NCBI GenBank assembly: GCA_021833625.1
Contig: JAKBEU010000001.1
Location: 434,001-498,000, forward strand
Direction of reading: 5' to 3'
DNA length: 64,000 bases
From: a bacterium
GTDB taxonomy: Bacteria > Patescibacteriota > Microgenomatia > UBA1406 > GWC2-37-13
The position numbers and the translations under genes are program-made. Under the pieces are notes generated by a model, which was not told the origin of the DNA, made no database searches, and saw only the letters and a program-made list of their open reading frames with translations. Positions 47,712-54,276 of the stretch are shown one piece after another (the first letter of the stretch is position 1; each line of letters starts with the position of its first letter).

Positions 47712-49085
47712 TTATCCCTTTAAGCTTTCTAAGAACTCACCGTTTGTCTTTACCTTCGTAAGCTTCTCGATCATGGCCGTCAACCGCTCTTCAGGAGTCA
47801 ACAGTGATAACATGCGTCGAAGCGTTGTTATCTTTTTCAATTGATCTGCGTTAAAGAGTAATTCTTCATGTCTCGTGCCTGATTTTTCAATATCAAGAGC
47901 AGGATAGAGTCGTTTATCGGCAAATGAACGGTCAAGGTGGACTTCCATGTTGCCGGTTCCCTTGAACTCTTCATAGATAAGGTCATCCATGCGTGATTCT
48001 GTCTTAATAAGAGCTGTTCCGATTATGGTCAAGCTTCCTCCCTCTTCACAGTTTCGTGCTGCTCCTAAGAACTTCTTTGCGGGATAAAGAGCTGATGCGT
48101 CAATTCCGCCTGACATACTGCGCCCTGTTCCTCGTCCGTTTTGAGTGACTGCCATATTGAGTGCTCGAGCAAGACGGGTAATTGAGTCAAGCAGGATGAC
48201 AACATCATGTCCCATTTCAACCATGCGGCGTGCTCTGTCAAGTGCCAAATGAGCAACCTTGACTTGCTGTCTGGGTGATTCGTCAAAATTTGAGGCTGCA
48301 ACTTCTCCCTTGAGGGATCTTTTTATTTCCGTCACTTCTTCAGGACGTTCTCCGATGAGAATTGCCATCAAAACTGCTTTCGGATAGTTAGCGGTGATTG
48401 CTTCCGCGATTTCCTTAAGGAATGTCGTCTTTCCTGCTTTTGGCTGAGAGACGATGAGAGCACGCTGTCCAAACCCGACAGGTGCAATAAGGTCGACTAT
48501 GCGGGTTGACAGGACTTCCGGTTTTGTTTCAAGTCTAATCTGTCTGTTCGGGTGAAGGGATGTCAGCTTATCAAAATCTTTTCGCGTTCTGCTTTGTTCC
48601 TCGGTGAGTTCGACACCGTTGATTTTTTTGATAAGAAGAAGGGAATGAAACCTCTCGCCCTCTTTTGCAGGACGTGCAAGTCCTTCTACTTCATCACCTT
48701 TTCGAAGCCAAAAACGGCGGATTTGAGATGTTGATACATAAATATCACTGTCCGGATTGATGACATAATCTTTTCGCAAAAAACCATATCCTCCGAATGT
48801 GACGTCAAGAATCCCTTTTGCGGGATAGCTCATCTTAAGATCTTCCTTCAGGCGCTCTTCAAGAGGAACTTCTGGTGAACTGGTGGAGGCGACTGCTTTT
48901 TTTGGTTCAGTAATTGCCGGTTTTCGGGATAAGGGGCGTGCAGGAGCGCGTTGGAGGGCATGTTCTTCAGGAACCGTAATGGGTTTTGATTCATATTGTT
49001 CGAGCATTTTGGAAACATCAAGCGTTTCGGATTGTTCTTGCGGAGTGGATCCTTTCGCGGGAGATTTTGATCGTTTTATAAACAT
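47712..49085 (-). CDS. rho: Transcription termination factor Rho
   Basis: 457 residues: a charged, flexible N-terminal extension of about 80 residues, the RNA-binding cold-shock-like domain (GILDVTFGGYGFLRKD), then the RecA-like motor with Walker A QPKAGKTT, Walker B DVVILLDSITRLARA, the Q-loop/R-loop region GRGTGRSMSGGIDASAL and GSLTIIGTALI. Rho is a hexameric RNA translocase that ends transcription and works with NusG. Length is slightly above the common 420 because of the extension. No Shine-Dalgarno is visible. Confidence 0.96.
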   Translation of the reverse strand: MFIKRSKSPAKGSTPQEQSETLDVSKMLEQYESKPITVPEEHALQRAPARPLSRKPAITEPKKAVASTSSPEVPLEERLKEDLKMSYPAKGILDVTFGGYGFLRKDYVINPDSDIYVSTSQIRRFWLRKGDEVEGLARPAKEGERFHSLLLIKKINGVELTEEQSRTRKDFDKLTSLHPNRQIRLETKPEVLSTRIVDLIAPVGFGQRALIVSQPKAGKTTFLKEIAEAITANYPKAVLMAILIGERPEEVTEIKRSLKGEVAASNFDESPRQQVKVAHLALDRARRMVEMGHDVVILLDSITRLARALNMAVTQNGRGTGRSMSGGIDASALYPAKKFLGAARNCEEGGSLTIIGTALIKTESRMDDLIYEEFKGTGNMEVHLDRSFADKRLYPALDIEKSGTRHEELLFNADQLKKITTLRRMLSLLTPEERLTAMIEKLTKVKTNGEFLESLKG

Positions 49086-49384
49086 AGAGAAAAAAAATTA
49101 AGTAATAAAATATAAAAAAAACACTATTCAACTAGTACGTTTGTTATTCAAAAATTAAGATTGGAATACAAATAACAGGCCAACAAGAAGAAAATATTTA
49201 TTGACCCTCACCGCAGGGATGAACAAGAAACTTTTTCCGTACGAATTAAAGGGGGTGGCGAGATCTGGACCGAGGTCTTCGATACTCATCCATATTTCTG
49301 TCTTAAAAGGACAAATACCCTATTTTTTGAAAATGTTCAGAAAAAGTTTTCAATGTACATATCCCTATCGAAGAGGATCGATAA
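49086..49384. other. Intergenic region between rho and the ABC exporter
   Basis: About 300 bp with no recognised gene. A 44-codon frame on the minus strand (49289 to 49155; begins MSIEDLGPDL, ends in a hydrophobic stretch) and a plus-strand frame from TTG 49201 are both weak. The GC-rich island GGGGGTGGCGAGATCTGG near 49250 looks like part of a structured or decayed RNA, but no tRNA, tmRNA or SRP cloverleaf could be drawn. Confidence 0.35.
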
Positions 49385-49402
49385 GCAGTATATAATACTG
49401 CT
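49385..49402 (+). promoter_or_regulatory. Promoter with palindrome for the ABC exporter operon
   Basis: TATAAT (49391-49396) lies inside a perfect inverted repeat GCAGTAT-ATA-ATACTGC (49385-49401). Six nt separate the -10 from an ATG at 49403. The palindrome is well placed to be an operator. Confidence 0.55.
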
Positions 49403-49438
49403 ATGCGATTTGTCAATATGAACTTATTTTTACTATGA
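49403..49438 (+). CDS. Leaderless 11-codon upstream ORF coupled to the ABC permease
   Basis: ATG 49403 opens an 11-residue frame (MRFVNMNLFLL) whose TGA overlaps the permease start as ATGA (49435-49438). The -10 box ends 6 nt before it, so the mRNA should begin at this ATG. Translation of the leader peptide could deliver ribosomes to the permease start, which lacks a Shine-Dalgarno. Inferred from sequence geometry only. Confidence 0.45.
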   Translation: MRFVNMNLFLL

Positions 49439-50220
49439 AAGCCCAATTGCAGCTTTTTTCGGTAACAATAAAGGAATTTTTCTCCTACCGCCTCAACTTT
49501 GTCCTCTGGCGCCTTCGCGCGCTTCTTTCAACCCTTGTCACCGTTTTTCTGTGGACCGCCGTTTTTGATACAAAAACACGGTTTGGATATTATTCAAGGG
49601 AACAGATGCTTTCCTACGTATTGTTCTCCAGCCTCATCATGACGCTTGTCTCAAGCACGCGAACGACGGAGCTGGCGAGCGACATCCAGAACGGGAACCT
49701 TATGAATCTGCTTTTGAAACCGATATCTCTTTTCCGGTACTACGCGACGGTTGACGTTGCCGACAAAACAATGAATATTTTCTTCGGATTTCTTGAGTGT
49801 GCATTCGTTGTTCTCTTGTTTAAAGTCCCGCTTGTCGTTCCTCAGGCGGTCCTTGTAAGTCTGTTTTTTCTTGCATGTGGGGTTACCATCAATTTCTTCA
49901 TCAATCTTATGCTTTCTTTTATCGGATTTTGGACACCTGAGGTGTGGGCTCCACGATTTTTGTTCATCATGATTTTGTCGTTCGTGTCCGGTACTTATTT
50001 CCCCCTTGACCTCCTTCCCGGGCCCTTATATCGGATATTGCTTTTGACTCCGTTTCCTTATCTGTTGTTTTTGCCGGCCCATATACTTATCCGGGGCGTT
50101 GAACCGCACTACATCATACAACAGATTATTTTTGCGCTGTTGTGGACGGTCGGCGGATATGTCCTGGCAAAGCAGATGTGGAAAAAGGGGTTGCATGATT
50201 TTTCATTTTGGGGAAGATAA
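49435..50220 (+). CDS. ABC-2 family transporter permease (first subunit)
   Basis: 261 residues with six predicted membrane helices. RLNFVLWRLRALLSTLVTVFLW at the start and FGYYSREQMLSYVLFSSLI, then GNLMNLLLKPISLFRYY, match the ABC-2 permease family with six spans (ABC2_membrane_6/DUF990). It forms an exporter with the next two genes. The substrate is unknown; relatives are often annotated as drug, lipid or polysaccharide exporters. Its start overlaps the leader ORF by ATGA. Confidence 0.82.
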   Translation: MKAQLQLFSVTIKEFFSYRLNFVLWRLRALLSTLVTVFLWTAVFDTKTRFGYYSREQMLSYVLFSSLIMTLVSSTRTTELASDIQNGNLMNLLLKPISLFRYYATVDVADKTMNIFFGFLECAFVVLLFKVPLVVPQAVLVSLFFLACGVTINFFINLMLSFIGFWTPEVWAPRFLFIMILSFVSGTYFPLDLLPGPLYRILLLTPFPYLLFLPAHILIRGVEPHYIIQQIIFALLWTVGGYVLAKQMWKKGLHDFSFWGR

Positions 50221-50223
50221 CCT

Positions 50224-51003
50224 ATGAAACGGAACATACACATATTTTTACTGTTTGCAAAAAACGCCTTTAATACGACCTCACAAGGCAAAATCGGCAT
50301 CTTTGTGTTTCTTATCGGGAAGATAGTCCGATTTCTCTTCATGTTTTATCTCATTTTCTTTATCTTTCAACATACCCGCTTCTTAAAAGGATACTCATTC
50401 GAACAGGCGGCTCTTTTTTATCTCGTGTTTAATCTTATCGACACCATTTCCCAAATATTGTTCAGGGAAGTCTACCGGTTCCGGTATCTGGTCACCTCAG
50501 GAGGACTTGATATGATCCTTCTGAAGCCTTATCATCCTTTTTTGCGGGTGCTTGTGGGAGGAGTTGATATTCTTGATCTGGTTCTTGTCGTCCCCTACCT
50601 TATTCTCACCGCACTTGCCGCTTCACGCGTTGTCACCACGCTTCCCCAATTTACTCTATTCATACTTCTGTTTATTAATGCTCTTTGGATTACTACCTCG
50701 TTCCATATCATTGTTTTGTCACTGGGTATTTTGACGACCGAAGTAGATCATACCATCATGATTTATCGGGACATAATAGGACTGGGACGGTTTCCTATGG
50801 AAATTTATAAGGAACCTGTCCGAGGTATTTTTACGTTTATCATTCCCGTTGCCGTGATGATGTCCTTCCCCGTCCAGGCGCTTGTCGGCAAGCTTGGGGG
50901 AAGCCTTGTTATATTTTCTTTTGTGATATCATCCTGTATATTTGTGGGTGCACTGCTTCTGTGGAGAAGCGCACTTGAACGGTATCAAAGTTGGGGAGGT
51001 TAA
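50224..51003 (+). CDS. ABC-2 family transporter permease (second subunit)
   Basis: 259 residues with six predicted spans. The pattern YSFEQAALFYLVFNLIDTI, then SGGLDMILLKPYHPFLRV mirrors the first permease, so the two are paralogues that probably form a heterodimer. It starts 3 bp after the preceding stop and is followed 6 bp later by the ATPase gene. Confidence 0.82.
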   Translation: MKRNIHIFLLFAKNAFNTTSQGKIGIFVFLIGKIVRFLFMFYLIFFIFQHTRFLKGYSFEQAALFYLVFNLIDTISQILFREVYRFRYLVTSGGLDMILLKPYHPFLRVLVGGVDILDLVLVVPYLILTALAASRVVTTLPQFTLFILLFINALWITTSFHIIVLSLGILTTEVDHTIMIYRDIIGLGRFPMEIYKEPVRGIFTFIIPVAVMMSFPVQALVGKLGGSLVIFSFVISSCIFVGALLLWRSALERYQSWGG

Positions 51004-51009
51004 TACACT

Positions 51010-51969
51010 ATGATTTCAGCACAACACTTAAAAAAAGTCTATAAAACCCATATCCGACAGGGCAATATTCTGAAAGACGTATTTAACCGGCACTATAAGG
51101 AGCATATTGCGGTTGACGACGTTTCATTTGAGATTGATGAAAACGAACTTATCGGTTTTATCGGACCAAACGGCGCTGGAAAAACAACAACGCTCAAAAT
51201 GTGTGCAGGCATTCTTCACCCCACCTCCGGAAAGTTGGAAGTATTGGGAAGTAATCCGTTTGAAAAAAAACACTCCTTTCTCAAACAGGTTGCATTTGTT
51301 ATGGGACAACGCAACCAACTGATATGGGACTTGCCCGCAACGGACAGCTTTACTCTTCAAAAGGCTATTTACGAGGTAAATGATCGCGAATTTAAAAAAA
51401 CCGTCGCTCATCTTGTTGACATATTAAAATGTAAAGATCTTGTTGAGAAGCCCATAAAAACACTCTCACTGGGTGAAAGAATGAAAATGGAACTTATTGC
51501 CGGACTTCTCTATAGGCCCAAACTCGTTTTTTTTGACGAACCCACGATAGGACTTGATATCTTCTCCCAAGAGGCAATCAGAGAGTTTATCCGCGAGTAC
51601 CAGCACACCTATCATGCAACCGTCATTCTCACCAGTCATTATCTGGAAGATGTCAAGCAACTTGCCAAACGGCTTATCATCATTAACAAAGGGAAAATAC
51701 TGTACGACGACCCGCTCGACAAGATAATTGAACAATATTCGCAGAAGAAACGGATTAAAATAACGCTCTCAAAGCCGGTTTCAAGTAAAATAATTAACGA
51801 CATAAAAAAGCCGTCCCTTTTCGTATTTCCGCAAATAGTATTTACCGTCAAGCCCTCAGAGATACCGGAGATTATCAAAAAAATTTCAGCCGTTCTTCCG
51901 TTTTCTGATCTTACCGTTGAGGATGAAAGCATCGAGACGATAATAAAACTGTTCTTTGAGAAAAATTGA
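51010..51969 (+). CDS. ABC transporter ATP-binding protein
   Basis: 319 residues: Walker A GPNGAGKTTT, Q-loop region VMGQRNQLIWDLP, signature LSLGERMK, Walker B LVFFDEPTIGLD and the H-loop TSHY. The WDLP element after the Q-loop is typical for ATPases that pair with six-span ABC-2 permeases. About 90 C-terminal residues form a separate small domain. GGAGG 12 nt before the ATG is one of the few Shine-Dalgarno-like sites in the window. Confidence 0.93.
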   Translation: MISAQHLKKVYKTHIRQGNILKDVFNRHYKEHIAVDDVSFEIDENELIGFIGPNGAGKTTTLKMCAGILHPTSGKLEVLGSNPFEKKHSFLKQVAFVMGQRNQLIWDLPATDSFTLQKAIYEVNDREFKKTVAHLVDILKCKDLVEKPIKTLSLGERMKMELIAGLLYRPKLVFFDEPTIGLDIFSQEAIREFIREYQHTYHATVILTSHYLEDVKQLAKRLIIINKGKILYDDPLDKIIEQYSQKKRIKITLSKPVSSKIINDIKKPSLFVFPQIVFTVKPSEIPEIIKKISAVLPFSDLTVEDESIETIIKLFFEKN

Positions 51970-52508: not shown

Positions 52509-53483
52509 ATGGAAACAAAAAAAATAAAGCTCGCCTTCTTCGGAGCCCCCGACTTTGCGGCAGATGTATTACAGGATATTCTTGAAGACAAAGAAATTCC
52601 TATAGAGTTGTGTTTTGTGGTCACCCAACCTGACAAACCGGTGGGAAGAAAACAGATAATAACACCGACCCCCGTTAAAGAAGTGGCAAGAGTGAATAAA
52701 ATCCCTGTTCTTGATTCATTACAATCTCCCGAGATACACGAAAAATTAAAACAGGTAGACCTTGTCCTTTTGTATGCATTCGGGGAAATTATTCCCTCCC
52801 AAATGCTTAAAATCCCTCGTTGGGGCTTCTGGAACATCCATCCATCTCTCCTTCCTTTGTATAAGGGGCCCTCTCCCATTGCCTATCCGCTTCTTTTGGA
52901 GGACAAAAAAACCGGAGTTAGCCTTGTTTTAATGGATGACCGCTTAGATCACGGTCCTCTTATCGGTCAGGAGGAATATATTATTCAGGAAACCGACACA
53001 AGAGACTTGCTTGAAAATAGACTTTCCAAAATAGGCTATAAGTTATTCAAGAAATATATACAAATACTTATATCCGGAGCGTTCCAAAAGAATGAACAAA
53101 ACCATTCTCACGCAACAAATACGCGACTATTAACAAAACAGGATGGATTTGTTGCATACCCTATTTTTCAGAAAATAATAAAAGGTGAAGACCTTGAAAA
53201 AGAGGATACCCCTTCCATAGTCGGCGAATTTTGCACAAAATATGAAGCGTTTCTTTCTCCGCCCCGATTATCGACGATGTACTATTCACTGTTCCGGGCA
53301 CTGTCTCCTTGGCCGGGACTTTGGACCAAGGTTTCACTTTCAGGCAGCGAAAAACGTTTGAAAATAACGGGAATGACACTTCAAAACGGAAAACAACAAG
53401 TTACAAAAGTACAACTGGAAGGGAAGAAAGAGGTAGATCTGCACACTTTCCGCATGGCTTATGCTTCATTCTTGAATCTATAG
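52509..53483 (+). CDS. fmt: Methionyl-tRNA formyltransferase
   Basis: 324 residues: N-terminal formyltransferase domain with AFFGAPDFAADVL, TQPDKPVGR, the active-site NIHPSLLPLYKGPSP (Asn and His) and MDDRLDHGPLI (Asp), and a C-terminal OB-like domain with RALSPWPGLWTKV. It formylates initiator Met-tRNA using 10-formyl-tetrahydrofolate, tying it to the folate enzyme folA further on. It is leaderless by promoter position, which is interesting because leaderless starts depend on fMet-tRNA pairing with 70S ribosomes. Confidence 0.93.
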   Translation: METKKIKLAFFGAPDFAADVLQDILEDKEIPIELCFVVTQPDKPVGRKQIITPTPVKEVARVNKIPVLDSLQSPEIHEKLKQVDLVLLYAFGEIIPSQMLKIPRWGFWNIHPSLLPLYKGPSPIAYPLLLEDKKTGVSLVLMDDRLDHGPLIGQEEYIIQETDTRDLLENRLSKIGYKLFKKYIQILISGAFQKNEQNHSHATNTRLLTKQDGFVAYPIFQKIIKGEDLEKEDTPSIVGEFCTKYEAFLSPPRLSTMYYSLFRALSPWPGLWTKVSLSGSEKRLKITGMTLQNGKQQVTKVQLEGKKEVDLHTFRMAYASFLNL

Positions 53484-53529: not shown

Positions 53530-54276
53530 ATGACAGACGAATTAGTTTCACAATCCGAACTTGCTAAAAAAGTTGAGTTTAACGAAGTCCAAAAGGCTTT
53601 TCACACATTCGCACTCGATTATGAAATAGTTGGACACCCAGATACACCCGTTAACACCCCCTTCAATCCTCCCAACGGTCCTGATGAACAGGGGCACAGA
53701 CAGTACAACTTGACCCTCCTTCCTGAGGACATGACCGAACAGCGGTTTTTAACGGAATTACACAGCGAAAGCGGAGTTGTTGTCTTTTATGGATGTATGG
53801 ACCGTGATGCGGCCATGCCTGCATATAAAAAGCTGCAGGAGCAGTTTCCGGACAAAAAAATAGTCTATATCACGGTTGCTGGAGGAGTGGTTCAGAAGGA
53901 AGATGAAAGAAAACAATCTCTTACCACCATTTCCCGTTACATTGCACAGCATCAGGAGAATATTGAGACAGTTGTCGCCACCGATCACGACCACACCTGC
54001 GGAAAGGTAAAAAAGGACTTAGGCGGCATTCCTCTTGCCCAAAAATTAGGAATCGAAAGTCCTCAAGTCGGCCACAGCGCCCCACATGCGGAACAGGCAG
54101 AAATGAAACAACTGATCCGAAGTGGAATCTCTGAATTAAAACTACCTAATTATTTCGGAAACAAACTGCGCCCAGCTCTTGTTGCAATAAACCGCACAGG
54201 CGAAGCGTCACTTGACTATTCGTTTCACGGGGTAGCCCCAAAGTCGATTAACTTCATCGCAGGTGCGGGAAAATAA
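53530..54276 (+). CDS. Protein with β-carbonic-anhydrase-like motifs
   Basis: 248 residues. The order GVVVFYGCMDRDAAMPA, then VYITVAGGVVQKEDERKQSLTTI, then ETVVATDHDHTCGKVKKDLG parallels the β-carbonic anhydrase layout: a CxD loop, an AG-G turn with a following helix, and an H..CG zinc loop. The second loop reads HDHTCG rather than HTDCG, so the ligand spacing differs and activity is uncertain. It follows fmt by 46 bp. It could be a divergent zinc enzyme or a structural relative. Confidence 0.45.
   Translation: MTDELVSQSELAKKVEFNEVQKAFHTFALDYEIVGHPDTPVNTPFNPPNGPDEQGHRQYNLTLLPEDMTEQRFLTELHSESGVVVFYGCMDRDAAMPAYKKLQEQFPDKKIVYITVAGGVVQKEDERKQSLTTISRYIAQHQENIETVVATDHDHTCGKVKKDLGGIPLAQKLGIESPQVGHSAPHAEQAEMKQLIRSGISELKLPNYFGNKLRPALVAINRTGEASLDYSFHGVAPKSINFIAGAGK

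Follow-up and report, generated by a model that had tools for sequence, protein, structure and literature searches.

The question raised by this locus is whether a reading frame of eleven codons, closed on the very start codon of an ABC exporter, works as a leader peptide for that exporter. The window analysed here is the whole stretch of 64,000 nucleotides taken from contig JAKBEU010000001.1 (assembly GCA_021833625.1, positions 434,001 to 498,000 of the forward strand), which belongs to a bacterium of the GTDB lineage Patescibacteriota, Microgenomatia, UBA1406, GWC2-37-13. A preliminary description, made from the sequence alone, had reported a TATAAT inside a perfect palindrome, followed by a short frame that ends in an ATGA at the start of a permease without Shine-Dalgarno. 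The sequence agrees with this anatomy. The ATG of the mini-ORF (49403) stands six bases after the TATAAT at 49391-49396, its stop TGA at 49436-49438 overlaps the permease ATG at 49435, and no Shine-Dalgarno was found before the latter, where the sequence is tatgaacttatttttact. Alignment with ten relatives confirmed this ATG as the homologous start of the permease. The two permeases scored 66.1 and 127.1 bits against PF06182, whose gathering cut-off is 22; this general family is their sole Pfam family above cut-off, and the ATPase remained below every specific NCBIfam cut-off among the matches listed (25 of 182 families). The features of the locus are collected in Table 1.

Table 1: Features around the palindrome between rho and the exporter operon (positions in the window).
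Feature	Position	Strand	Basis or remark
Palindrome with two overlapping -10 boxes, one per strand	49384-49402		AGCAGTAT-ATA-ATACTGCT
-10 box TATAAT of the exporter operon	49391-49396	+	predicted start A49403
5′-AUG mini-ORF MRFVNMNLFLL, 11 codons	49403-49438	+	sequence; not conserved
ABC-2 permease 1 (PF06182)	49435-50220	+	Pfam; start by alignment
ABC-2 permease 2 (PF06182)	50224-51003	+	Pfam
ABC exporter ATPase (PF00005)	51010-51969	+	Pfam
Promoter TTGACA-N18-TATACT of the structured RNA	49387-49416	-	promoter scan, 11/12 to consensus
Structured RNA, about 188 nt, upstream of rho	49195-49382	-	covariation, fold; without Rfam match
rho, transcription termination factor	47712-49085	-	profile matches

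The palindrome that holds the TATAAT is also crossed, on the minus strand, by a promoter that had been overlooked in the preliminary description. The spacer of this promoter is of 18 and not 17, and its TATACT (49392-49387) overlaps the TATAAT of the plus strand (49391-49396) at 49391-49392. Applying a 7-bp rule, the predicted starts were located at 49403 on the plus strand and at 49380 on the minus strand, that is, 23 bp apart. Overlapping -10 boxes and starts separated by about 10, 18 or 23 bp were taken as the mark of a bidirectional promoter, and the site shows both features, with predicted starts. In the bidirectional promoters described for E. coli by Warman et al. (PMC12825309), 18 is the commonest distance between starts, 10 and 23 being also common, and the opposing polymerases cannot bind together. 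Our site is like the bacterial promoters described there in its symmetric -10, which would serve both strands, and in the predicted distance between starts. It is unlike them in that its minus side has a strong -35 and a structured RNA, while its plus side would give, by prediction, a leaderless mRNA. The best -35 candidate for the exporter promoter matches 3 of 6 positions at most.

The minus promoter was recognized by its pattern upstream of rho in 23 of 30 loci, the window's own (L031) included. Six of the seven loci without the pattern show the RNA by eye, and the seventh (L039) has no upstream sequence. Around the related exporters, TTGTCAA, which contains the -35 of the opposite strand, recurs in L002-L005, L007 and L008, and a divergent rho lies beyond the minus promoter in the window as well as in L002-L005, L007-L009 and L011. 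The two congeners (L002 and L003) also carry this promoter. On comparison of these sequences, TTGACA-N18-TATACT is a conserved promoter across Roizmanbacteria, and we infer that the RNA is transcribed from it on the minus strand. Its -35 covers codons 3-5 of the mini-ORF, TTTGTCAA, and a caution is in order here: a -35 box of the other strand may pass for conserved codons of a leader.

The RNA that would start from this promoter, just upstream of rho, has a conserved structure, and its consensus runs in the order GATCCTCC...ACTTTTTC...AGGGTAA, two hairpins, CCC, GAAAAAGT...GGAGGATC. When 30 sequences were aligned (A2), 85.0% of the cells were paired, and sliding the partner gave at most 60.5%. 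Changes on both sides were observed in 28 of 41 pairs, against a mean of 17.9 after shuffling, and none of 500 shuffles was as high. A further alignment of 34 loci (A4), which was fitted to the structure model and hence leans towards the structure, gave 88.0% of cells paired and both-side changes in 33 of 39 pairs, against 24.0 after shuffling; it leaves out the f1 loci with strong antisense matches, L155 with its long insertion, L158, L168 and G000. The core alignment A5 (without L060 and L156) lost register in the 3′ arm and was set aside. The copy in the window folds at a z of -3.9. In three scans, Rfam 15 gave no match to the structured RNA in the window region or in relatives, the other hits being tRNAs or lying elsewhere, and in a limited search of the open-access literature we found no description of this RNA or of the exporter leader site. 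Pairing of the 5′ flank of P2 with the conserved UAUCAA, as a candidate pseudoknot, found no support, with 54.1% of cells paired against 56.5% after shuffling in a MAFFT alignment that is weak at that place. In one copy, at the end of a short contig (L155, G005:C22), the P4 hairpin is lengthened by about 67 nt of GC-rich inserted sequence.

The distribution of the RNA was surveyed with the model R1, which matched 45 of 57 relatives. Among the matches are genomes beyond its training set (G019, G037-G041, G043, G044, G046 and G047), in which the RNA lies on the same strand as rho and upstream of it. In a scan of the class, 45 of 281 genomes matched, and a scan of the phylum gave 4 of 379 genomes, all of the same class; either the RNA is limited to the class or R1 reaches no further. 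The class-scan copy lies on the same strand upstream of rho in 39 of the 45 genomes, elsewhere in five (G048, G103, G107, G225 and G275), and in the remaining one (G085) no rho match accompanied it. We also considered 80 named rho loci, found by a rho query and mostly labelled Candidatus Roizmanbacteria, Gottesmanbacteria or Levybacteria, and in 55 of them the model matched the sense strand upstream of rho. Weaker, antisense matches also occur at these loci, in the same places as the sense matches, because of the symmetry of the stems. Among the relatives, G012, G026, G042 and G045 have neither a strong rho match nor the RNA, and in G005 the RNA is not accompanied by a strong rho match, but the contig ends 178 bases later. 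All the copies away from rho, those of the five genomes and a weak one in G053, adjoin tRNA genes. The copies of this kind in L156, L157 and L160-L163 often stand beside tRNA-Thr(TGT); the tRNA adjoining L162 is cut by the contig end and was detected by Rfam only. With the exception of L161, the rho-distant copies have a TTGAC box just upstream.

Considering its usual position, it is possible that the RNA is a cis-acting leader through which rho regulates itself and not an independent RNA gene, a reading to which we give the lesser credit. The same-strand location upstream of rho in most class-scan genomes and named loci speaks for such a leader, as does the lack of the RNA in the four relatives without a strong rho match. 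A leader of this type would be expected always upstream of rho, however, and the copies beside tRNA genes, together with the one accompanied by no rho match, do not follow this rule. Furthermore, in the family f25 a further TTGAC box lies at most 60 nt downstream of the RNA and before rho in 8 of 10 copies (L164, L165, L167-L169 and L171-L173), as if rho had a promoter of its own there, and the gap from the RNA to rho is not conserved. Because copies occur away from rho, with their own TTGAC boxes, and because this second box stands before rho in f25, the comparison favours an independent RNA.

6S RNA measures about 185-190 nt, has its own sigma70-type promoter, a closing stem formed by its paired ends and internal loops, and is present in one copy per genome. 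The structured RNA resembles 6S RNA (RF00013) in all these aspects, its size, its own promoter, the closing stem, the internal loops and the single copy per genome, but it differs in the three-way junction at its top. RF00013 itself was found in 0 of 20 relatives, against 5 of 14 control genomes. A 6S-like role of the structured RNA is at this point a guess. We lean somewhat towards an independent RNA family of housekeeping type in Microgenomates, of about 190 nt, which may replace 6S and whose promoter would here also drive the exporter, so that the two directions would compete. The proposed family would stand by rho in Roizmanbacteria and Gottesmanbacteria, and in further families by tRNA genes, among them that of tRNA-Thr. 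The RNA regulators of these uncultured bacteria are hardly known, and across them an RNA with strong covariation and its own promoter adjoins rho, which codes for a general transcription factor. As an independent RNA, it would be a candidate for one of the general RNAs that are missing, 6S for example; as a leader of rho, it would represent an autoregulatory system of a new type. We consider this RNA, on the opposite strand and absent from Rfam 15, more interesting than the leader peptide, which taken alone would be one more 5′-AUG mini-ORF in one species.

A key aspect of the plus strand is the arrangement of the exporter in related genomes. The permease was searched in 57 relatives (41 with a match), in all 3 available genomes of the genus and in 72 genomes of the family (44 with a match); the same protein query in the named genome collection gave no match. 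The loci taken from these searches are the best matches only, and 42 of them, including the window's own, were oriented and compared. The mini-ORF in its window form was present in 0 of the 41 related exporters among these best-match loci. In 31 of the 41, both congeners included, a -10 box (5/6 or 6/6) ends 4-9 nt before the permease start. Several of the ten remaining permeases lie closely behind an upstream ORF and are probably inside operons, and one of the 31 directly leaderless ones (L029) also follows an upstream ORF and may be within an operon. Two looser candidates, L006 and L027, have a 5′-AUG frame and a 5/6 box, but their frames do not resemble the window's mini-ORF and, unlike it, lack the ATGA.

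The two other genomes of the genus retain the exporter, 59-61% identical, without the mini-ORF. In L002 the leader ATG is absent, and L003 has an unrelated frame of 9 codons that stops 8 nt short and is not preceded by a good -10 box. Each of the two has a TATACT whose end lies 7 nt upstream of the permease ATG, and the -10 boxes of the two directions are separate there, the one of the RNA ending 45 nt upstream of the permease start. The preliminary description had looked to relatives for a conserved leader frame with its ATGA overlap, and had named a broken frame beside an intact exporter as the observation that would speak against it; the frame is missing from 41 of 41 exporters, and its absence beside a retained exporter is what both congeners present. 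The leader exists in one species only among those compared, and any function of it may be restricted to the species of the window, considering that only two congeners at 59-61% identity entered the comparison.

Taking into account both strands, we find it probable that the site is a bidirectional promoter and that the exporter promoter has moved onto the -10 of the RNA, leaving a lineage-specific mini-ORF. The direct -10 before the permease ATG would have been lost in the window's species, and the operon would now use the TATAAT that backs the -10 of the RNA, with its start at A49403. Such a move would leave behind 32 nt, by coincidence readable as a mini-ORF. The operon mRNA would begin with AUG CGA UUU, and ribosomes could load on this 5′ AUG, translate the eleven codons as far as UGA and begin again at the permease AUG that overlaps this stop. 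By analogy with E. coli, an RNA polymerase located at the shared site would exclude the opposing one. The mini-ORF would then be a by-product of the lineage, at most a loader of ribosomes and not a conserved sensor.

The delivery of ribosomes to the permease start, one of the two functions that the preliminary description had suggested, is plausible in the light of published work. Beck et al. 2016 (PMC4965119) showed that in E. coli ribosomes can bind to frames opened by a 5′ AUG, and that such frames can have an effect on the gene downstream. As with the 5′-terminal AUG uORFs described in that work, the short frame of the window precedes the main gene and, by the predicted start, would begin with the first AUG of the mRNA at its 5′ end. 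In the E. coli cases presented there, however, the downstream gene has a Shine-Dalgarno and the starts come from transcriptome data, whereas in the window the permease has none, the frames overlap in ATGA and the starts are predicted. Re-initiation at overlapping frames has been described, with low efficiency without Shine-Dalgarno (PMC2268962). The window shares with those cases a stop that overlaps the next start and the lack of a Shine-Dalgarno, but the cases described couple full genes, while here a mini-ORF of 11 codons would be coupled to the permease.

It is also conceivable, though we judge it unlikely, that the mini-ORF is not used. The mRNA would start elsewhere, or ribosomes would find the permease AUG directly, at 32 nt from the 5′ end; the fit to TATAAT-N6-ATG would be a coincidence due to the symmetry of the -10 in the RNA promoter. 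The spacing had been likened in the preliminary description to that of other leaderless starts, and the motif class is in fact enriched: TATAAT-N6-ATG occurs at 50 sites in the genome (48 were fetched genome-wide and the other two lie within the window), against 11 for the control pattern read backwards, and at 42 of the 50 the ORF that begins there has 90 codons or more. The mini-ORF has the spacing of this class, with a transcription start that is predicted. It is one of 8 sites that open a short ORF, and chance alone would give 11 sites of whatever kind. The motif supports leaderless starts as a class without singling out the mini-ORF, because the short-ORF sites are at the chance level. 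A closure in ATGA arises readily by luck, given that in shuffles the frame reaches that TGA at a rate of 42% when it is fixed and of 15% when it is random. On the other hand, the TATAAT stands exactly at the position expected for the operon promoter, and in the window there is, apart from the TATAAT at 49391-49396, no -10 box with at least 5 of 6 matches located 4-9 nt before the permease start.

That the palindrome is the operator of a dimeric repressor of the exporter seems very improbable to us. Its 8-bp arms are perfect and cover the -10 box, as an operator could, and the extended 15-nt arms match at 80%. Nevertheless, it is present as a single copy in the genome, a search allowing 3 mismatches gave 7 sites, one of them that of the window, where the control gave 11, and it is not conserved in the congeners. 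Inverted repeats with 8-bp arms are, moreover, about as frequent as chance predicts, with 10 in the window and 10.5 in simulation. Least credible of all is a leader peptide dedicated to regulation, in which the state of translation would sense an inhibitor and control the exporter: its anatomy fits (a leaderless start opens a short frame that overlaps in ATGA with the exporter behind it), but the frame is missing in the related exporters and in both congeners, its codons 3-5 coincide with the conserved -35 of the promoter on the other strand and the exporter family is unspecific, and the inhibitor sensing that the preliminary description had proposed is unsupported, neither the peptide nor the exporter being tied to translation inhibitors.

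Other sites with the same spacing were also seen. The methionyl-tRNA formyltransferase gene at 52509 of the window has a TATAAT six bases before its ATG, counts among the 42 sites with a long ORF and is another predicted leaderless start; it adjoins an ORF of 248 codons (53530-54276) without Pfam match. At L107 (G000:C3:179818-180618), a TATAAT-N6-ATG site opens a membrane-like ORF of 43 codons, and an ORF of 100 codons lies 9 nt further on; the former is possibly a second leader or part of a frameshifted gene.
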